The notes under the pieces: generated by a model
The model's database searches: none
What the model was told of the DNA's origin: nothing
What the model saw: only the letters and a program-made list of their open reading frames with translations
Part shown: positions 26,832-38,395 of the stretch, piece by piece
Numbering within the stretch: position 1 is the first letter of the stretch
Layout: every line of letters starts with the position of its first letter
Assembly: GCA_903876045.1 (NCBI GenBank)
Contig: CAIQYP010000335.1
Coordinates: 1-38,705 of the forward strand
Length of the DNA stretch: 38,705 bases
Source: an uncultured beta proteobacterium
Lineage (GTDB): Bacteria; Pseudomonadota; Gammaproteobacteria; Burkholderiales; Burkholderiaceae_C
Direction of reading: 5' to 3'
Made by a program: the position numbers and the translations under genes

Positions 26832-27593
26832 ATGACGCGAGTTCTAACGCGTACCCACTTCCATAGCTCCCGACTGCTTCGCATCCTCACAGACTTGTCT
26901 GATGTGGGGGTGCCTGCGCCAGGAGTGGCGTTTGCAGAAAAACTGGGCTTGTGGGTGGATTACACCGATGCCATTGCTTTGTATGCTGTGCACTGCGCGA
27001 GCACTTTTGAGGCGGGTGAATCGCATGAAGCTGAGCAGGTGGATATTGCCGATGATTTCGCGCGCATACGGGCCAGTCTGGAGCAGCAGATTGCCCGCAC
27101 GGCTGCACCCAAACGGGGGCAAAGTGGCGTCGAGTTGCCTATGCCGCAAGCCAACATGCCGGCCGACCTTAACGGCGCCTACGAGCCCTACCGCCGCTAC
27201 TATCTGGCACACCAACGCGACATGGACTTGAGTGTGCCGCCCCTGCGCTCCCGAGTGCGCGAAAAGCTGGCCACGCTATCACCCGCGCTCCAGCAACTGG
27301 CTGCCCTGGACGGGACTTTTGAGAACATCCTGAACGAGCGCGAAGCCATGTTGTTGGCCAAGTTGCCGCAAATCCTGAAGAAGCGCTTTGCGCACTTGCG
27401 TCAGTTGCATCAGCAATCGTTGGTGGATACGCAGCAGGTGGACCGGCCCGAGCAGTGGATGCAACCGGGTGCCTGGTTGGCGCGCTTCTGTAACGAACTA
27501 CAAACCGTGTTGCTCGCAGAGTTGGATCTCCGCTTGCAACCCGCAGTGGGGCTGCTTGATGCCCTGCAACACGAGAAAACCAAACAGTTATGA
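26832..27593 (+). CDS. DUF3348-like protein, first gene of motor-like operon
   Basis: HSSRLLRILTDLSDVGVPAPGVAFAEKLGLWVDYTDAIALYAVHCAS; recognised from memory as DUF3348-like, by pattern and gene neighbourhood. Confidence 0.75.
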   Translation: MTRVLTRTHFHSSRLLRILTDLSDVGVPAPGVAFAEKLGLWVDYTDAIALYAVHCASTFEAGESHEAEQVDIADDFARIRASLEQQIARTAAPKRGQSGVELPMPQANMPADLNGAYEPYRRYYLAHQRDMDLSVPPLRSRVREKLATLSPALQQLAALDGTFENILNEREAMLLAKLPQILKKRFAHLRQLHQQSLVDTQQVDRPEQWMQPGAWLARFCNELQTVLLAELDLRLQPAVGLLDALQHEKTKQL

Positions 27594-29254
27594 ATAGACA
27601 TTTTTTCACCGCCACGTTTGCTCTTGGCTCAATGGCTTTGGTGTGGGTTGCCGCCGGATTTTTTGGCACCAACCTTCTGGCGCTGATGGTCACGCTGCTG
27701 ATATCAGCCGTGTATGGTTTTGGCGCATTCGAGTTGCACCGCTTCAGGCAGTCCACGTCCGGTTTGACAGCCGCGCTCGCCGCAATTCCCGAAGGACTGC
27801 GCGATCTCAATGACTGGTTGGCCAGCGTGCCTGCCTCGTTGCAGAACCCGGTGCGTTTGCGCGTGGAAGGTGAGCGCGTTGGTTTGCCCGGCCCGGCACT
27901 CACCCCGTATTTGGTGGGCCTGCTGGTGATGCTGGGCATGCTGGGCACGTTCCTGGGTATGGTCGTCACGCTCAAAGGTGCAGTCTTCGCGCTGGAAGGC
28001 ACTTCTGATCTGGCTGCTATTCGCAGTGCCTTTGCCACACCCATCAAAGGCTTGGGCCTGGCCTTTGGAACCTCGGTCGCAGGCGTGGCCTCCTCCGCAG
28101 TGCTGGGTCTGTTGTCGGCCCTTAGCCGGCGCGACAGAATGCAAGCCGCGCAATTGCTGGACAGCAAAATTGCCACGCAGCTGCGTAGTTTTTCACACAG
28201 CCACCAGCGCCAGGAAACCTTCAAGGCCTTGCAGCTGCAATCCCAGGCCTTGCCGCTGATCGCCGACAAAATGCAGGCCATGATGCTGCAGATGGAGCGC
28301 GTGGGCCAGCAGATGAATGAACGCCTGCTCAGCAATCAAGAGAGCTTTCACCGCAACGTCGATTGCGTCTATACCGACCTGGCACGCTCCGTCGATCTAT
28401 CGTTGCGCAACAGCCTGTCGCAAAGCATGCAGATCGCGGGCGAAAGCATCAAACCTGTGGTCGAGGCCGCCATGACCGGTATGGCTGGCGAAGCCCGTCT
28501 GATGCACGAACGCATGGTTCTCAGCGTAGGGCAACATGGCGCTATGCTGCGCGACGAATTCAGTGCACTGCGGACCGAAGAAGCCGTGCGCGGCAACGCG
28601 GCGGTGGACCGCCTGGCCGAACTGCAAACTGCGCTCACCAGCCACCTGACAACGCTAGGCACCGCACTGGAAGACCCGATCACCCGGCTTATACAAACAG
28701 CGTCCGAGGCACCGCGCGCGGCAGCCGAAGTCATTGGCCAGTTGCGACAGGAAATCTCCCACGGCATGGCACGCGACAACGCTTTGCTGGAAGAGCGCAG
28801 CCGCATCATGGAAACCTTGAACACGCTCTTGGCGGGCATCAACCACGCCTCCCTGGAGCAGCGCGCTGTGATCGACTCGCTGGTTGCGTCGTCTGCGGTT
28901 TCGCTGGAGCGTGCGGGTGAGCAGTTTGCCGAGAAGGTGGACGCGGAAGCCATCAAGCTCGCCGACATTGCGGCGCACGTCACCAGCAGTTCGGTGGAAG
29001 TTGCCAGCCTGGGCGAGACGTTCAACTTTGCCGTACGCTCTTTCAATGAAGGCAACGAAAAGTTGATCGCCAATCTGCAGCGCATTGAGGGTGCGATGGA
29101 TAAATCCTTGGCCCGCAGCGATGACCAGTTGGCGTACTACGTGGCCCAGGCGCGTGAAGTGATTGACCTGAGCACCATGTCGCAGAAAGAAATTGTCGAA
29201 GAGTTGCGTCAATTGGCGGACAGGCAAGCCATGCTGGCGCCGGAGGCCGCGTGA
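27590..29254 (+). CDS. MotA/TolQ/ExbB-like membrane protein with long helical C-terminal tail (DUF802-like)
   Basis: Two N-terminal TMs; LVGLLVMLGMLGTFLGMVVTLKGAVFAL...IRSAFATPIKGLGLAFGTSVAGVASSAVLGLLSAL (proton-channel TMs); extended coiled-coil-like region; tail AREVIDLSTMSQKEIVEELRQL. ATGA overlap with previous gene. Confidence 0.85.
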   Translation: MNRHFFTATFALGSMALVWVAAGFFGTNLLALMVTLLISAVYGFGAFELHRFRQSTSGLTAALAAIPEGLRDLNDWLASVPASLQNPVRLRVEGERVGLPGPALTPYLVGLLVMLGMLGTFLGMVVTLKGAVFALEGTSDLAAIRSAFATPIKGLGLAFGTSVAGVASSAVLGLLSALSRRDRMQAAQLLDSKIATQLRSFSHSHQRQETFKALQLQSQALPLIADKMQAMMLQMERVGQQMNERLLSNQESFHRNVDCVYTDLARSVDLSLRNSLSQSMQIAGESIKPVVEAAMTGMAGEARLMHERMVLSVGQHGAMLRDEFSALRTEEAVRGNAAVDRLAELQTALTSHLTTLGTALEDPITRLIQTASEAPRAAAEVIGQLRQEISHGMARDNALLEERSRIMETLNTLLAGINHASLEQRAVIDSLVASSAVSLERAGEQFAEKVDAEAIKLADIAAHVTSSSVEVASLGETFNFAVRSFNEGNEKLIANLQRIEGAMDKSLARSDDQLAYYVAQAREVIDLSTMSQKEIVEELRQLADRQAMLAPEAA

Positions 29255-29895
29255 TGGAGGACGTTGACTCCGGCCTGGAACAAACCGCGCCGGTCTGGGC
29301 CGTTTTTGGCGACCTGATGTCGGGCTTGCTCGGGGCCTTTGTACTGTTGCTGTTGGGTGTGCTGGTGGTGCAACTGCAGTTGACCGCCAACCTCGAAGAC
29401 GAGGTGAAAAAACGCCAGGTCGAAGAGCAACGCCGCATCAGCCTCGAAAAAGCCTTGGCGATTCCCCTGGCCACCGGGCGCATTACCCTGAACAACGGGC
29501 GCATTGGCATCAGCGGGCGCTTGTTGTTCTCGCTGAACTCAGACCAGTTGCAGCCCGAGGGACGCAAGCTGCTCAACAGCCTGGTCCCGCCACTGCGGGC
29601 CTACCTGGGCGCGCGCGATGAACTGTTGATGATCAGCGGCTTTACCGATGACCACTCCGTTCGCGCCAGCAATAGCCAGTTTGCGGACAACTGGGAGCTG
29701 TCGGCCCAGCGGGCCTTGACCGTTACCCGCGCCCTGATTGAGGAAGGCATGCCGTCCTCCATGGTGTTTGCGGCGGCATTTGGTGCCGAGCAACCCATCA
29801 CGCCCAATGTGAACGAGGCTGCCCGCGCACAAAACCGGCGTGTGGAAATGGCACCCGTGCCCAAGGCCCGCAGTGAGAAGAATGTCGCTCCATGA
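29254..29895 (+). CDS. MotB/OmpA-family protein (single TM with conserved Asp plus peptidoglycan-binding OmpA domain)
   Basis: APVWAVFGDLMSGLLGAFVLLLLGVLVVQLQL; OmpA motifs ISGFTDDHSVRASNSQFADNWELSAQRALTVTRALIEEG...AQNRRVEM. ATG 29254 overlaps the previous TGA. Confidence 0.93.
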   Translation: MEDVDSGLEQTAPVWAVFGDLMSGLLGAFVLLLLGVLVVQLQLTANLEDEVKKRQVEEQRRISLEKALAIPLATGRITLNNGRIGISGRLLFSLNSDQLQPEGRKLLNSLVPPLRAYLGARDELLMISGFTDDHSVRASNSQFADNWELSAQRALTVTRALIEEGMPSSMVFAAAFGAEQPITPNVNEAARAQNRRVEMAPVPKARSEKNVAP

Positions 29896-30581
29896 GTGAG
29901 CCCGGCCATGGCGAAGTTGCAACGGACTTGTTGCCAGAGCCCTTTGACTGTGCGTGGCAGATTGCCGCTTTGCGTGAATCCGGGGCCTGTCTGTTGGATC
30001 CTGTGCGCTTCCACTACCTTGAGGCGCTGTGCGCGCGTGCAGAGGCGCAGCAAGGCCGGGTCAAAAGCATCCTGGAAAATAAGCTCGTGCTGGTTGTGGC
30101 AGATTTCAGATTGCATTTGGCGCAAGTGCAACAGCAGAGTCAAAGCGCGAGGGTAGATCGCATGGCCCCGCAGGACGTCACGGCCTTGCGCGGCGAATCG
30201 TTGGGCGAATTGGTCCGGTCAATGGCCCAGGCGGAGCCGGATGCAGGGAATCTGAACCAACACGCAACCGTTGCTATGGGGCCTGAACTGAAGTCGGTTC
30301 GCCTGTTCAGAAGCACCTGGTCCAAGCTCAGCGTCGATAAGCAGCTCAACGCCGCACTGGATCAGGCTCCCAAAAATGCCGGACCCATCAATTCCCACAT
30401 GCTGGTTTTGCGCTCACTGGCGCTGATGCGGGAAATCTCGCCCGATTACCTCAGTTGCTTTGTCTCATATGTTGATACGTTGGTTCATCTGGAGCAAAGC
30501 GATAAGTCGAAGCTCGCCATACCCAAGATTGAGGCTGAAAGCAGGGGCGGCAAAAAGCCGAAAGTGCGGCGCGCACGCTAA
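29892..30581 (+). CDS. DUF2894-like protein, last gene of motor-like operon
   Basis: HMLVLRSLALMREISPDYLSCFVSYVDTLVHLEQSDKS recalls DUF2894; ATGA overlap with OmpA gene. Confidence 0.75.
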   Translation: MSEPGHGEVATDLLPEPFDCAWQIAALRESGACLLDPVRFHYLEALCARAEAQQGRVKSILENKLVLVVADFRLHLAQVQQQSQSARVDRMAPQDVTALRGESLGELVRSMAQAEPDAGNLNQHATVAMGPELKSVRLFRSTWSKLSVDKQLNAALDQAPKNAGPINSHMLVLRSLALMREISPDYLSCFVSYVDTLVHLEQSDKSKLAIPKIEAESRGGKKPKVRRAR

Positions 30582-30753: not shown

Positions 30754-31089
30754 ATGAAGAATACTTTGGTACGTAAATTTCAGCCGTCCACGGCCAACGG
30801 GCCTTTAGCTGAATCGGGCACCGAAAAACCTGCCACGGCAGCCGCGCCGTCAGTGGATAGTCCACCCGCCTCGGACGTCGACATCCCCGAGATCAACACC
30901 AACTTCATCGACAATTTGTTTACCGACCCCACCTTTGTCGACCGGTTTGATGTGGCGTTTGGTCAAACTGTGCCTATGGGGCTGGATCCGGAAACGAAGC
31001 AGTCTGCAAAACAACGTGAGCCAGAAGACCACAGCCAAGATTGGCCGGACATGCTGGATATTTCTTTCACCAAAAAGAAACCCGATTGA
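30754..31089 (+). CDS. Hypothetical 111-aa acidic soluble protein
   Basis: Open frame with ATG; DVDIPEINTNFIDNLFTDPTFVDRFDVAFGQTVPMGLDPETKQ; no family recognised. Confidence 0.65.
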   Translation: MKNTLVRKFQPSTANGPLAESGTEKPATAAAPSVDSPPASDVDIPEINTNFIDNLFTDPTFVDRFDVAFGQTVPMGLDPETKQSAKQREPEDHSQDWPDMLDISFTKKKPD

Positions 31090-31248
31090 CTTTGCGTTTT
31101 TGACTTCGCGCGCCAGCGCAGATTCATCCATGGCCCGAGTAAACCACTACGTAGACACACATAGTCGGGCCACGTAGCCAAGCTGCGGATCACACACCTC
31201 CTTGAAACGACACTGCTTGAAAGGCAAGTGAAGTGAAAGGATTCGGTG

Positions 31249-32034
31249 ATGGACACAGTGGCTTACTCCAACGGCAGAATGCAGCCCATCCAGGTGTGGC
31301 TCGTCCGCAGTGTGGCCGTGCTTGCCGTAGTGGCTCTATTGGCAATTTCCGCGCCACTGCTTTGGGCGGCAGTATCCGCAGGCGCTGGAATCATTGCGCT
31401 CGCAGGCATGGCCACCGCAGGGTTTGCCTGCTTGCAGTTGGTTCCATGGGCGCTGCAAAAGCTGGAAAATAAAATCCTGGCCTTGAGAAAAGCAGAGGCC
31501 CGTCAAAACCCCATCGAGCAATTGCAGAATGATTGTTTCAAGCGGGAGGAGCGCCTGCAATCCTTCCGGCGTGCGCTGGTGACCATTGGCGGGCAAATTG
31601 AGTCCATGGGCCAGATGGTGGAGGAAAGACGCCATAGCGATCCGGAACATGTTCTGGACCGCCAGGACCGGGCGCTAACACGCATGAAGCACTTTTATAA
31701 CGCGAACATCCGTCGTCTTGAAGAGGCACAAATTGCACTGGAGGCGTTCCGGCATCAGGTCAAGCAAAAGATGTTTGAGTGGGAGTTCGCACAAGCGGGC
31801 AAGGTGGTGATGGCCGCTCTTAACCCCCGTGAACTGGAAGACCTCATGCAGGACCTGTTGACCGACGAAGCCCTGCGTGAAGTTCAGAGCCGCTTCAACA
31901 GCGTATTTGCAGAACTCGATATCGAGATGCGATCCATGAGTTCGCCAACCAATGATTTTCTGGAGCGCAACGACATGGAAAAAATGGAAGCGCTGACGCT
32001 TCCTGAGTTGGCAGGAAAGAGGAAATCCAAATGA
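31249..32034 (+). CDS. Hypothetical membrane protein, N-terminal TMs then helical/coiled-coil cytoplasmic domain
   Basis: VWLVRSVAVLAVVALLAISAPLLWAAVSAGAGIIALAGMATAGFACLQL followed by a long charged helical region; stop overlaps the next ATG. Confidence 0.75.
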   Translation: MDTVAYSNGRMQPIQVWLVRSVAVLAVVALLAISAPLLWAAVSAGAGIIALAGMATAGFACLQLVPWALQKLENKILALRKAEARQNPIEQLQNDCFKREERLQSFRRALVTIGGQIESMGQMVEERRHSDPEHVLDRQDRALTRMKHFYNANIRRLEEAQIALEAFRHQVKQKMFEWEFAQAGKVVMAALNPRELEDLMQDLLTDEALREVQSRFNSVFAELDIEMRSMSSPTNDFLERNDMEKMEALTLPELAGKRKSK

Positions 32035-32180
32035 ACTTCTGGAAATTACTTCGCTGGGTCTCAGCCGCAATATTTGTGGTGTTGATTCTCTTGAGCCTTG
32101 TGCTTGCGCACTCGCGTTTTGACTTCTCAACCAGCGGTGCACAAGAAATCCCGCGTCCCGCCCCCCTTATCGTCCACTAA
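32031..32180 (+). CDS. 49-aa single-TM membrane peptide
   Basis: Below the ORF-track cutoff: MNFWKLLRWVSAAIFVVLILLSLVLAHSRFDFSTSGAQEIPRPAPLIVH; ATGA overlap with upstream gene and 18-nt gap to the TAXI gene. Confidence 0.65.
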   Translation: MNFWKLLRWVSAAIFVVLILLSLVLAHSRFDFSTSGAQEIPRPAPLIVH

Positions 32181-32198
32181 AAACCCAAGGAGAAAACT

Positions 32199-33170
32199 AT
32201 GAATCTATCCAAAATGCGCCACCTCTTCATCGCCTCAATAGCGGGCCTTTGCGCCCTTTCTGTTAGTCCTTTTGGTCATGCTCAGGAGACGCAGGCCGAC
32301 TGTTCGATTCGTATTGGGGGTGGTCCAAAAGGCAAGGTCTATGAATTGATGATCAAGGATATGCAGGCCGTTTGTGGTGCAGAAGTTTCTATTTGCGCCG
32401 TCCCCAGCATTGGCGGTTTGCCTAACCTGATGATGCTGTCCTCCAATCAGACGGAGTTGGGTATCGCACAACTCGATACGCTGCAAGTCATGGCGAGCGG
32501 AGGGGATGAGAATATTGCCGCGCTGCAGGCCGTTATGCCTTTGCATACCAACTTGCTGCATATTCTGTCGTTGCGTGACGGCTCCAGGGTGGGCGTCACA
32601 CCCATGCCATTTTCCGGTCAGATCCAAGTCATACGCAAGTTCTCGGACCTCAGGGGAATGAAGATTGCCGTCGTGGGCTCGACCCAATTGCTGGGTCAAA
32701 CCCTGAACAAGCAAACCGGATATGCGATGGAGCTATTGCTGGCCGAGTCCGACGACATCGCAATCAAAATGTTGCAAAGCAACCAGGTGCAGGCCGTCTT
32801 TACGGACGGCGGTTGGCCGTTGCCATCCATAGCTGGACGGTTGCCTACCAGCGGCCTCTCGCTGGTGGAGTTCGATCTCCCTGCGCCGCCGCGCTTTACC
32901 ATTGTGCAACGCACCTACCAGAACCTGGATTCGTTCAATAACAAATACCTGGGTTCCCCCAATATTCTGGTGACTCGCCCGTTCAAGGCCAGCGGTGACA
33001 TGGGCAAAAAAGTGACCACACTGCAAAGCTGCCTGATCCGTCATTTGGAAGAACTGAAAGAGGGGCGTTACCAGGCCGCATGGAAGGACGTCAAGGATCC
33101 ATTCAATACCTTGGGAGTCGCTCGTTTTGCACCGGCAATAGCCGATAAGACAAAAGTCAGCGCGCGTTGA
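32199..33170 (+). CDS. TAXI-family (TRAP-transporter-associated) solute-binding protein
   Basis: Signal peptide; CSIRIGGGPKGKVYELMIKDMQAVCGAEVSICAVPSIGGLPNLMMLSSNQTELGIAQLDTLQVMA; TAXI/NMT1-like periplasmic fold. Confidence 0.75.
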   Translation: MNLSKMRHLFIASIAGLCALSVSPFGHAQETQADCSIRIGGGPKGKVYELMIKDMQAVCGAEVSICAVPSIGGLPNLMMLSSNQTELGIAQLDTLQVMASGGDENIAALQAVMPLHTNLLHILSLRDGSRVGVTPMPFSGQIQVIRKFSDLRGMKIAVVGSTQLLGQTLNKQTGYAMELLLAESDDIAIKMLQSNQVQAVFTDGGWPLPSIAGRLPTSGLSLVEFDLPAPPRFTIVQRTYQNLDSFNNKYLGSPNILVTRPFKASGDMGKKVTTLQSCLIRHLEELKEGRYQAAWKDVKDPFNTLGVARFAPAIADKTKVSAR

Positions 33171-33295
33171 ATAGTTGGGGTTTGCATTCGAGAGTCCAGG
33201 GTTTACGAGTATGTGCTGGCACCTATAGACCCCGTGCGAACCCGTGGTTGAATAGGGCATAGAGAGATTGAACATAAAACTAAACGCACGGAGCT

Positions 33296-34711
33296 ATGGG
33301 CTTCTGCAGGGGAGCATATGCCGTGGAACAAACCAAGTCCCGATTTTTACCTCAGTTGAAAGGACGTTTGACCGTTCTCCTTCTGGCGGCATTGCCCCTG
33401 ATTTTCGCCATTGTTTCCGTGGCTTTCATCGTTCAATTTCAATTTGACAATTTGTCTCGCGTCCAGCTGACTTCGGTGGAGCCGATCTTGCTGCAGGCCA
33501 GAAAAGATGAGATCAGGGACTTCGTGCAGACTGGACGCAAGGCCGTGGTGGACCTGATCAAACGCAATGGCAACACCCCCCGGACGCAGCACGAGGCGCG
33601 CGAAATGCTGCGTAGCATGGACTTCGGTGCCGACAACTACTTCTTCGTCTATGACACGCGGGGCAACGGTGTCATGCACCCCAGGCTGCCAGCCATGGAG
33701 ACCCATAATTACTGGGACCTCAAGGACCCGGACGGGGTCATGATCATTCAGCGCTTGATCAAGGAGGGAGAAGCCGGCGGCGGCTTTGTAGAGTTCCTCT
33801 GGCATCGCCCCTCCACTGGCTTGAATGAGAAAAAGATTGGCTACGCCGTCATCATTCCGGAGTGGAACTGGATGGTTGGCAGTGGCCTCTACCTCGATGC
33901 GCAACAGGAAACCGAGAGCCGTTTGCGGGAGTCAATCATCAATGCCAACCGTGCCACCCGCCAGCAGATTTTGCTGGTCTCACTGGCTGCCATCCTGATG
34001 GTGTTTGTGGGCGTGTTTACGCTCAACCTGTATGAGCATCGCAAGGCCAATAGCAAGGTCCGTTTTCTGGCGCAGGAAGTGGTTCGCTCGCAGGAGCTTG
34101 AACGAACCCGGGTCGCCCGGGAACTCCACGACGGCGTCAGCCAATCCCTTGCCTCGGTGAAATTCACCATGGAATCGGCGGACATATATCTCGACCGTGG
34201 CAAGACCGAACCCGCATCCGCATCTTTGAAGTCATCTATCGCGCAGTTGATCGCCGCCATGATTGATGTGCGTCGAATTTCACATGACCTCTACCCCACC
34301 ATTCTGGACGATGGGGGGCTTGGCGTAGCCATTGAGCAGTTGGGCCGTGAGTTCAGCGCACGCACCCACGTTCCGGTGCTGGCTGAAGTTGCACCCGTGC
34401 CGCTGCTCAAGCGCGAAGTGGCGTGGGCGCTTTACCGCTTCGTGCAACAGGCGTTGGCAAACATAGAGAGCCATGCACACGCAGGCACCGTAAGAGTCAC
34501 TTTGAATTTTTCGCACGGAATTCACTTGCACGTCGGCGACGATGGCATTGGATTCAGTGTGCTGGATTGCATGCACCGCAGAAGTGGACTGGGACTGACC
34601 AGCATGCGCGAGCGAATTGAAATGTTGGGTGGCGAGTTTGAGATCCAATCTCGGCCCGGGATGACTATTTTGAAGGCCTACCTGCCTTTGGAATCTTTAA
34701 GAACAGATTGA
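33296..34711 (+). CDS. Cache-domain sensor histidine kinase (HisKA_3/NarX-type)
   Basis: Extracytoplasmic Cache (NYFFVYDTRGNGVMHPRLPAMETHNYWDLKDPDG...YAVIIPEWNWMVGSGLYLD), H-box RVARELHDGVSQSLASVKF, G-boxes GDDGIGF and SGLGLTSMRER. Start may be GTG ~33323. Confidence 0.93.
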   Translation: MGFCRGAYAVEQTKSRFLPQLKGRLTVLLLAALPLIFAIVSVAFIVQFQFDNLSRVQLTSVEPILLQARKDEIRDFVQTGRKAVVDLIKRNGNTPRTQHEAREMLRSMDFGADNYFFVYDTRGNGVMHPRLPAMETHNYWDLKDPDGVMIIQRLIKEGEAGGGFVEFLWHRPSTGLNEKKIGYAVIIPEWNWMVGSGLYLDAQQETESRLRESIINANRATRQQILLVSLAAILMVFVGVFTLNLYEHRKANSKVRFLAQEVVRSQELERTRVARELHDGVSQSLASVKFTMESADIYLDRGKTEPASASLKSSIAQLIAAMIDVRRISHDLYPTILDDGGLGVAIEQLGREFSARTHVPVLAEVAPVPLLKREVAWALYRFVQQALANIESHAHAGTVRVTLNFSHGIHLHVGDDGIGFSVLDCMHRRSGLGLTSMRERIEMLGGEFEIQSRPGMTILKAYLPLESLRTD

Positions 34712-34715
34712 CTTC

Positions 34716-35156
34716 ATGACTACACCTGAACCAGAACTTGCGCAATACCATGAGCCCACTCGACTACTACTGGTAGATATCCACGCCATATCGCGCACCA
34801 GTTCGAGACTATTGCTGGAATCCTTTTCGACGCTGCATGTGTTGGGGGAAACCAGTGATTACCTGGAGGCCATGAATATGGTTGCGGTATTGCAGCCTGA
34901 CGTCGTCTTGATCAGCATGCGTGTGCAAGGTGCTACGGGACCGGAGGCGGCAAAGCAGATCCTTAAGATAAAACCGAATACCAAGGTCATATTTCTAACG
35001 CTTTTTGATGACCCGGAATACGTCCGCTCGGCTATGGATGCAGGAGCCCACGCCTATGTGCTCAAGCAGGAACCTGCGGCACAGGTATTGCAGGCCATCG
35101 ATCGGGTCATGCGTAACGAGATCTATTTGTCACCTGGTTTGAATAGAAAACATTGA
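34716..35156 (+). CDS. Stand-alone receiver-like protein lacking the phosphoacceptor Asp (pseudo-receiver)
   Basis: RLLLVDIHAISRTSS...LQPDVVLISMRVQGATG...VIFLTLFDDPEYVRSAMDAGAHAYVLKQEPA; Asp position is Ser (codon AGC); no HTH. Confidence 0.88.
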   Translation: MTTPEPELAQYHEPTRLLLVDIHAISRTSSRLLLESFSTLHVLGETSDYLEAMNMVAVLQPDVVLISMRVQGATGPEAAKQILKIKPNTKVIFLTLFDDPEYVRSAMDAGAHAYVLKQEPAAQVLQAIDRVMRNEIYLSPGLNRKH

Positions 35157-35162
35157 AGGAAT

Positions 35163-35828
35163 ATGGTTATGACCGCTCCGATCAAATTGCTGGTGGTTGA
35201 AGATCACCCTCTTTCTCGCCATGGACTCATTTCGATGCTGGAGGCGTTCGGTGATCAATTTGAAGTCGTAGCCGAGGCTGCCAACGGCGAAGAAGCCCTG
35301 CTGAAATTCGTGAACATCAAACCGGATGTGGTGATAACGGACCTGCACTTCGCGCCGAATGATCTGACGGATGGAATTGACCTGGTGCGCAGGCTACGTG
35401 AGCGGCATCCGCTAGTGCCGGTCGTAATGCTCACAGCAGAACTGGACGATGAATATTTGCTGCTGGCCCATGAGGTCGGCGTAAACGCATTTCTAAGCAA
35501 GCACTCTAGCGCTGCAGAGATTGCCAAAGCCATTGATGCTGTGGCCAGTGGCTTCACTCACTTCCCCGCGCGGCTGCGTGAGGTGCTTGAAAAGCGCAGC
35601 AAAGAGCCCCGACTGACGGAGCGTGAAAGCCAGGTAGTACCGCTCATCGCCATAGGCATGACGGCGAAGCAAATTGCAATTGAACTTACAAAACGCCAGC
35701 CGTCGAGGCCGATTGCGGATCGCACAGTTGAAATATTCAAGGGAAAAATCAGACGAAAGTTTGATTTGACCTCAACAAATTCGCTCATCGCGTTCTCTAT
35801 CAATTACTGCAAGAAAATTCGTAAATAG
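35163..35828 (+). CDS. Response regulator, receiver + LuxR-type HTH
   Basis: LLVVEDHPLSRHGLIS, DVVITDLHFAPND (Asp present), VVMLTAELDDEYLLLAHEVGVNAFLSKHSS; HTH LTERESQVVPLIAIGMTAKQIAIEL...RTVEIFKGKIRRKFDLTSTNSLI. Confidence 0.93.
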   Translation: MVMTAPIKLLVVEDHPLSRHGLISMLEAFGDQFEVVAEAANGEEALLKFVNIKPDVVITDLHFAPNDLTDGIDLVRRLRERHPLVPVVMLTAELDDEYLLLAHEVGVNAFLSKHSSAAEIAKAIDAVASGFTHFPARLREVLEKRSKEPRLTERESQVVPLIAIGMTAKQIAIELTKRQPSRPIADRTVEIFKGKIRRKFDLTSTNSLIAFSINYCKKIRK

Positions 35829-36784: not shown

Positions 36785-36895
36785 AGAACTTTGTGTCCGA
36801 AGTGCGTGAAACTATCCCATCTGTGTAGAAGATCGTGCCAAATGGGTCGGTCCTACGGCAGCTACATTTCTTGGGGCGGATCGGGACAGGCAATC

Positions 36896-38395
36896 ATGAA
36901 TACACAACTTTCAATTTCCGGAGTCTTCCGGCCCATGGCGTTTTTTCTGCTGGCACTTTGTTTCGGCATTTCATTATTTTTGGTGGGATGTGGCGGAGGA
37001 GGCGGCGGCGGTGGTGGCACTGCGACGAGCGATGCAGGACGTAGCTTTGCGCCTTCCGCGAGTTTGGCCAATTTGTGCGCTAGTCCGAGCCCGAATACTT
37101 CGGTCGTGCAGGGAACAGTAGTTCAGGAAAAGGCTTACCTTCGTTCATTCATCGACGAGACCTACCTCTGGTATCGGGACGTTCCAAGCAACTTGGTTGC
37201 GGCGAACTATGCGACAGCGCCTTTGTATTTTGATGTCCTGAAAACCAGTGCGAGAACAGCGTCAGGCGTTGCAGTAGATCAGTTTCACTGGTCGCAGACA
37301 ACCGCGTCCTGGAATGCGGCCCAGTCCGGGCAGGCAGCGGACTATGGCATTCGGTGGGCTGCGTTGGCTAGCTCTCCACCGCGCAATTGGCTGGTGGCGG
37401 ATGTGGCGCCCAACTCGCCGGCGGCGCAGGCGGGTATCAAGCGTGGGTACAAGGTCACCTCTGTTGATGGTGTCGATTTTGTGAATGCCAATACGCAAGC
37501 AGAAGTGGATATTTTGAACGCAGGATTGTCTCCGGGCGTTGCAGGGGTTCACCGTTTCGTCTTTTATGGCATCCCTGAGTTGAGCTTGACCCCGGCGCCG
37601 TACACGGTCACCACGGTTCAAAGCGTACAGACCTTCGCGACGAGCAACGGAACGGTTGGCTACTTTACCTTTGACAGCCAAATCGCTCAGTCAGAGGGAG
37701 AACTGATAGCTGCAATAGCCCAACTCAAGGCCGCAAATGTGAACGACCTTGTGATTGACATGCGATACAACGGCGGTGGTTTGCTGTACATCGCCAGCGA
37801 GTTGGCCTACATGATTGCAGGCCCAGACCGGACCGCCGGCAAAGTCTTTGAGCAAACGATTTTCAACGACAAGCAAAGCGCTTACAACGCAGCATATAAG
37901 TTTGCGTTCTATGGAACAACCCCGATCAGCAGTCTGCCTCATCTTGATTTGGCGCACGTGACGCTATTGGTGACCCATGGCACTGCCTCCGCGAGCGAAT
38001 CCGTTATCAACAGTCTGCGTGGTGTGGACGTGACCGTGGATCTGATTGGTGCCAACACACGTGGCAAGCCCTATGGTTTTTATCCCCAGGACAATTGCGG
38101 TTACACCTATTTCGCGATTCAGTTCAAGGGCGTGAACAACAAGGGCATTGGCGATTATGTTGACGGCTTCGCGCCGAACTGTGCCGTAGCGGACGATTTC
38201 AACCATGCGCGCGGGGATACAGCCGAGGGCATGCTAAGTGGGGCATTGAGCTATCGGCAGACAGGTGTTTGTCCGATCAACGCAAATGCACAGGTGATGC
38301 AGGCCGTTGGGCGAGGTGGCGGTGGCGCCGGCCTTGGGCTGATTCAGCCGGCTACGCCGGAATTGCGCGTGCTGACAGCGTTGCCAGGACCATGA
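36896..38395 (+). CDS. S41-family (C-terminal processing-like) peptidase, lipoprotein
   Basis: Lipobox-like FLVGCGGGGG; PDZ-like VAPNSPAAQAGIKRGYKVTSVDG; S41 NDLVIDMRYNGGGLLYIASELAYMI and HGTASASESVINSL. Confidence 0.9.
   Translation: MNTQLSISGVFRPMAFFLLALCFGISLFLVGCGGGGGGGGGTATSDAGRSFAPSASLANLCASPSPNTSVVQGTVVQEKAYLRSFIDETYLWYRDVPSNLVAANYATAPLYFDVLKTSARTASGVAVDQFHWSQTTASWNAAQSGQAADYGIRWAALASSPPRNWLVADVAPNSPAAQAGIKRGYKVTSVDGVDFVNANTQAEVDILNAGLSPGVAGVHRFVFYGIPELSLTPAPYTVTTVQSVQTFATSNGTVGYFTFDSQIAQSEGELIAAIAQLKAANVNDLVIDMRYNGGGLLYIASELAYMIAGPDRTAGKVFEQTIFNDKQSAYNAAYKFAFYGTTPISSLPHLDLAHVTLLVTHGTASASESVINSLRGVDVTVDLIGANTRGKPYGFYPQDNCGYTYFAIQFKGVNNKGIGDYVDGFAPNCAVADDFNHARGDTAEGMLSGALSYRQTGVCPINANAQVMQAVGRGGGGAGLGLIQPATPELRVLTALPGP

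Follow-up and report, generated by a model that had tools for sequence, protein, structure and literature searches.

A TAXI-type binding protein and two constant membrane partners encoded beside three kinds of two-component system in bacteria related to Rhodoferax

A TAXI-type periplasmic binding protein encoded within a two-component system (TCS) locus that holds no TRAP permease raises the question of what such a protein does there, and we know of no accepted role for orphan TAXI proteins. We have addressed this question in an uncultured beta proteobacterium, using a window of 38,705 nucleotides (the whole stretch of DNA that was analyzed, contig CAIQYP010000335.1). The first-pass annotation proposed that the TAXI protein may be a receptor for signaling rather than for transport, with a coiled-coil protein as accessory membrane component. 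The real unit is wider than the window locus: it is a triad of genes encoding the coiled-coil protein (CC), a small transmembrane (TM) peptide and the TAXI protein, i.e., a previously undescribed three-gene membrane module carried by bacteria related to Rhodoferax, which most likely helps to sense a small molecule rather than to import it.

The locus comprises six co-directional, tightly packed genes (31249-35828, + strand), and ORF and Pfam analyses confirmed all those named in the first-pass annotation together with their overlapping or closely spaced starts. The CC gene (31249..32034; ATG at 31249, alternative GTG at 31246) overlaps by the 4 bp ATGA the gene for a 49-aa peptide beginning MNFWK, with a single TM segment (32031..32180). 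The TAXI gene (32199..33170), encoding a periplasmic binding protein with a Sec signal peptide, lies 18 bp downstream. It is followed by the genes for a sensor histidine kinase with the Pfam domains sCache_2-HisKA_3-HATPase_c (33296..34711; the start may be GTG 33323), for a stand-alone pseudo-receiver (Response_reg) whose acceptor Asp is replaced by Ser (34716..35156, 4 bp after the kinase gene), and for a LuxR/NarL-type response regulator (Response_reg and GerE) with an intact acceptor Asp (35163..35828, 6 bp further on). A candidate operator, CCACTACGTAG, lies at 31144..31154 (+ strand), 105 bp upstream of the CC start. Neither an Rfam family nor a tRNA was found within the window, and the scans for sigma-70 promoters and terminators gave scores no better than those of shuffled sequences.

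Directly upstream of the candidate operator there is a 111-aa ORF without family (30754-31089), and another triad locus, L046, has at the same place an ORF of similar size with a similar end sequence. Further upstream, the 26832-30581 block encodes in overlapping order a DUF3348 protein, a TM coiled-coil protein (MotA/TolQ-like by eye), an OmpA-type protein and a DUF2894 protein, and part of it appears upstream of the L046 triad too. On the other side, 36791-38395 encodes a C-terminal-processing peptidase of the S41 type, whose signal region is followed by a poly-Gly stretch.

The assignment of the TAXI protein was borne out clearly by its fold and weakly by its sequence. It scores 34 bits on TIGR02122, below the cut-off of 84.35 (the best TAXI paralogue of the same genome, with 55 bits, is also below it), and its Pfam NMT1_3 match is sub-threshold. 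The AlphaFold model has a mean pLDDT of 88, and the seven best PDB matches to it are without exception TAXI proteins (E 4e-15 to 3e-13). Ligand binding by VcGluP, the binding protein of a TAXI-TRAP system, rests chiefly on Tyr45 and Gln93 (PMC11574862). In a profile alignment Tyr48 and Gln91 are their equivalents in the window protein, and the equivalent of Glu125 is Asn118, so that the pocket looks functional and is perhaps not tuned to glutamate. The pocket Gln is lost in the TAXI proteins of Massilia. The window protein also differs from TAXI-TRAP systems such as VcGluP in having no fused DctQM permease.

The kinase is MctS-like, with 377 bits on NF052443, below the cut-off of 700. In the sCache pocket of PscD, Tyr90, His103 and Lys156 are among the residues that bind C2/C3 carboxylates (PMC5062169), and they correspond to Tyr115, His128 and Lys180, invariant in the kinases of this type described below as kind A. 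At the Tyr143 position, the window and L046 have Phe and the other six kind A loci have Tyr. The window kinase can thus plausibly bind C2/C3 carboxylates directly. The acceptor position of the stand-alone receiver is Ser in seven of the eight kind A loci and Gly in one, which indicates that the pseudo-receiver is conserved and not a local defect.

The CC protein consists of two TM helices followed by a coiled-coil domain, which would be cytoplasmic by the positive-inside rule; neither it nor the microprotein encoded after it matched any family in Pfam or NCBIfam. Its AlphaFold model, a TM hairpin plus a long helical hairpin, is of low confidence (pLDDT 68). Kinship to PspA/ESCRT-III or XpaC was rejected (hhalign probability about 10% or less), as were the Foldseek matches of this pLDDT 68 model in the PDB (PspA, Vipp1, CHMP2A, CdvB, and BAR domains among them; all E > 0.4). 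A distant CC relative occurs on another contig of the same genome (C406; L045:5975-7986) and in the genome G479 (L085:7939-9920), paired with a protein that, as scanned in the former locus, fuses an N-terminal TM segment, SBP_bac_3 and LysM; this partner protein is possibly a fused form of the TM peptide and a binding protein.

The grouping of these genes is more than chance, since the combination of triad and TCS is present at four places in this genome and again in relatives. Each of the four CC and TAXI copies of the genome lies beside a TCS: an sCache kinase, a pseudo-receiver and a LuxR regulator in the window (C335) and on C476; a dCache-PAS kinase and a FixJ-type regulator on C127; and, on C125, a divergent kinase/FixJ pair and an orphan DctP, followed by CC, TM peptide, TAXI and an SPFH protein. 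Together with 33 loci from a CC search of GTDB genomes, one of the genome G059 and one of the Azospira plasmid pAZI09, these make 39 triad loci, nearly all in Burkholderiales. The TAXI gene adjoins the CC gene in 39/39, and a small single-TM ORF follows CC in 38/39, mostly starting with M[N/K/T]FW and usually with the 4-bp ATGA overlap; this ORF stays with CC even in loci ordered TAXI-CC. The suggested accessory role of the coiled-coil protein is consistent with this constancy, which the TM peptide shares. CC and this TAXI subfamily are found in exactly the same 3 of the 201 genomes of the family, which makes the module a rare one whose parts occur together; order- and phylum-level genome samples gave the same matches.

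A TCS adjoins the triad in 26 of the 39 loci, in three kinds. Kind A, the window type, is found at eight loci (the window, L006, L046, L054, L057, L061, L069, and L073), so that the expected conservation of TAXI, Cache kinase and two receivers as a neighborhood holds there. Kind B, with a dCache-PAS kinase and a FixJ regulator, is found at nine (L005, L047-L053, and L055), and kind C, with a DctS/DctR-like pair and an orphan dctP, at another nine (L007, L056, L058, L059, L062-L064, L066, and L067). Among the carriers of kind C is a cultivable isolate, Ramlibacter rhizophilus. Thus TAXI and TCS genes do co-occur, and the arrangement of a three-component system, i.e., a binding protein gene beside kinase and regulator genes and conserved in relatives, is present. 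Outside these counts stand L068, which has the kind C layout on a contig beginning inside dctP, L060, whose contig ends at TAXI, and the G059 locus, with a divergent kinase/regulator pair about 1.4 kb from the triad. Ten loci of Massilia, Azospira and others (L065, L070-L072, L074-L078, and L103) have no operonic or divergent TCS, although in the Massilia loci L071, L074 and L075 a hybrid kinase gene lies next door on the opposite strand. The existence of the triad without a TCS, including in the outgroup-like Massilia and Azospira, means that its role is not confined to signaling to a kinase.

Several of these loci have further features. In the conjugative plasmid pAZI09 of Azospira sp. I09 (L103:2122-9960), the co-directional run of the TCS-less triad includes two TelA (toxic anion resistance) proteins. 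An SPFH/Band 7 protein recurs beside the triad or just past the TCS (L007:13349-14293, L051, L052, L059, L064, L068, and L065:3955-5265). L077:9722-13815, on a contig that bears the label Candidatus Adlerbacteria, encodes a triad-like CC, a small TM ORF and a pair of NMT1_3-type binding proteins; this set is unusual for the taxon, and the contig is possibly misbinned.

The phylogenies of the two larger triad proteins differ. The TAXI tree requires four changes of TCS kind (the minimum is three), against 18.6 in shuffled data, whereas the CC tree requires eight, and on it the hypothesis of a single clade failed for kind A as well as for kind B (AU p 1.7e-4 and 5.8e-5). The window CC shares about 70% identity with several kind B CCs and about 50% with most other kind A CCs, and the window TAXI groups with kind A. 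Since the TAXI tree follows the TCS kind and the CC tree does not, CC appears to have moved from one system to another, TAXI remaining with its TCS. This agrees with a role of TAXI as the specific element and of CC as a shared membrane partner, a pattern to which linkage to the TCS could contribute; linkage alone could also cause the TAXI tree to follow the TCS kind.

Each TCS kind has a motif of its own, palindromic or repeated, directly upstream of the triad operon, which makes control of the triad by the neighboring TCS probable. As the motifs were derived from the same loci in which they were counted, their class exclusivity and fixed position count as evidence rather than their number: the class A motif CCMYTAYGTAR occurs once each in seven of the eight class A loci, 100-116 bp upstream of CC (7 matches against 0.69 expected), and in none of 30 other module loci (2.27 expected); the class B motif TGTGTAGTTCTACACA, allowing up to three mismatches, is found in 7/9 class B loci, some 66-134 bp ahead of the first gene in the triad (some start codons, and hence distances, are approximate), with two matches elsewhere in 526 kb; and TGTGG-N4-CCACA, mostly in tandem copies, occupies the divergent kinase/dctP promoter in 9/9 class C loci. 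In L057 and L061, the class A motif is one arm of a palindrome. The LuxR regulator is presumed to bind the motif at 31144. One further class A site, with one mismatch, was found genome-wide, close to the number given by chance (about 0.9 by our own estimate), so that a wider regulon is only a lead. This site, the extended palindrome ACATAAGGGTTAACCCATGT on contig C195 (L106:1956-1969), lies in the promoter region of an operon for a branched-chain-type ABC binding protein and permease.

The first-pass annotation saw no TRAP permease in the window, and indeed the window contig has no DctM gene. Searches with the DctM, DctQ and fused QM proteins of the same genome found no TRAP permease beside the triad in any relative examined, no permease gene recurs there, and the genes neighboring the window TAXI gene, all assigned, include no gltS or other symporter. 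A pairing of TAXI with a remote TRAP permease was also rejected, since each of the six DctM permeases of this genome lies beside a DctP-type or DctP7-type partner, none beside TAXI. Kind C is closest to the dctSR-dctPQM locus of the same genome (C286), with 59% identity in DctP and 42% in both kinase and regulator. It has the same divergent layout, and one copy of TGTGG-N4-CCACA lies at the same place before dctPQM, but CC, TM peptide and TAXI stand downstream of dctP where dctQM should be. We infer that kind C may be a permease-less duplicate of a TRAP locus, rebuilt around the triad.

Functional linkage of triad and TCS is thus well supported; that its direction is sensory is most likely, as the best single reading, though unproven. 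We propose, with a probability of about 0.48, that the locus encodes a two-component system that regulates itself and is assisted by a binding protein, TAXI, acting as a co-receptor tethered to the membrane. CC and the TM peptide, constantly paired and overlapping by 4 bp, would form an inner-membrane assembly that holds the secreted TAXI protein at the membrane. To judge from its fold and two conserved pocket residues, TAXI would bind a small, probably carboxylate-bearing ligand and, once loaded, present it to, or modulate, the Cache domain of the neighboring kinase. The kinase would phosphorylate the LuxR-type regulator, and the pseudo-receiver would serve as a modulator that cannot itself be phosphorylated. 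By acting at the conserved site that lies about 100 bp before CC, the regulator may induce the operon as a whole. The signaling role of TAXI put forward at the outset is thus favored by the TCS linkage, the upstream motifs specific to each kind, the TAXI lineage that tracks the TCS kind, the intact fold and pocket, the constant membrane partners and the lack of a nearby permease; that it acts as receptor of the kinase is the less certain part. The kinase may sense alone, since its carboxylate-binding residues are kept; the upstream motifs speak at most for regulation of the triad, not for sensing by it; and the TCS-less loci count on the same side. Moreover, when binding proteins encoded next to kinases were tested, no interaction was found, so adjacency is not always coupling (PMC11113362).

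A possible though less probable explanation is that the TCS has the triad as its output only. The kinase would sense a carboxylate with its own Cache domain and induce the triad, and a non-signaling TAXI would capture a ligand at the membrane for a permease encoded elsewhere. The plausibility of direct carboxylate binding by the kinase is the main reason to rank it high. The motifs upstream of all three kinds, the kind C triad at the dctQM place (where a regulated uptake operon would normally stand), the motif copy before dctPQM and the triads without a TCS also agree with it, and TAXI proteins can work with permeases outside the TRAP family, for example GltS (PMC12344293). However, no permease gene is found repeatedly next to the triad, the TRAP permeases of this genome each have their own adjoining DctP, and it is the TAXI lineage, not that of CC, that follows the TCS kind.

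It is rather doubtful, in turn, that CC, the FW-type TM peptide and the binding protein make up a membrane-tethered complex of a new class, able on its own to relay ligand occupancy to the other side of the membrane, wired to three TCS kinds and replacing a TRAP permease in one lineage. We consider it quite unlikely that the triad is a signaling or transport device in its own right, in which loaded TAXI would act on a target in the cytoplasm via the TM peptide and CC, the role of the TCS being limited to control of expression. Its persistence without a TCS in Massilia and Azospira, the pairing of the distant CC relative with the TM-anchored SBP_bac_3-LysM protein, and the SPFH neighbors would suit such a device, but no more than three TM helices are predicted for the triad, which shows no transporter fold, and CC has a low-confidence model with no significant structural match. 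Finally, an ordinary TAXI-TRAP system with a fused permease elsewhere and an incidental TCS neighborhood is very improbable given the DctP partners of all six permeases found, the relatives without a permease beside the triad and the recurrent linkage to three TCS kinds, even if an assembly of 578 contigs, about 94% complete, could miss a permease gene.

The co-receptor reading has parallels in known systems. In CuaD-CuaSR, a binding protein has a dedicated TCS but lacks a dedicated permease (PMC10384115), and BctC is described in PMC9602780 as both target of and co-sensor for its own TCS in the BctC-BctE system. TAXI proteins can leave TRAP permeases, as in TAXI-GltS of Bordetella pertussis, where the partner is a Na+/glutamate symporter, none of which adjoins the triad (PMC12344293). 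The nearest NCBIfam families to the window kinase and regulator are MctS/MctR of Rhizobium, named in PMC9100948, from which the locus differs in the lower kinase score, in having no adjoining mctP symporter, and in the added TAXI triad and pseudo-receiver.

AioX-AioSR is another three-component system of binding protein and TCS. It shares with CuaD-CuaSR, BctC-BctE and our locus a periplasmic binding protein gene beside kinase and regulator genes. The binding proteins of those three systems belong to other families, none has CC, the TM peptide or a conserved pseudo-receiver, and contact between binding protein and kinase has been shown in those systems, whereas it is only proposed for the window locus. 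The literature searched, which covered few subscription papers and so gives weak evidence, mentions neither a TAXI protein linked to a TCS nor the CC/TM-peptide pair.

These results give the orphan TAXI protein a constant and uncharacterized membrane pair, together with regulatory partners of three kinds, each with its candidate operator. CC defines a protein family and the TM peptide a microprotein family, for neither of which a Pfam or NCBIfam model was found. With partners and operators defined, sensing and uptake become separable by simple deletions and reporters. The linkage of the triad to three TCS kinds makes the finding more general than a single locus, and TAXI joins the families of binding proteins plausibly linked to kinases.
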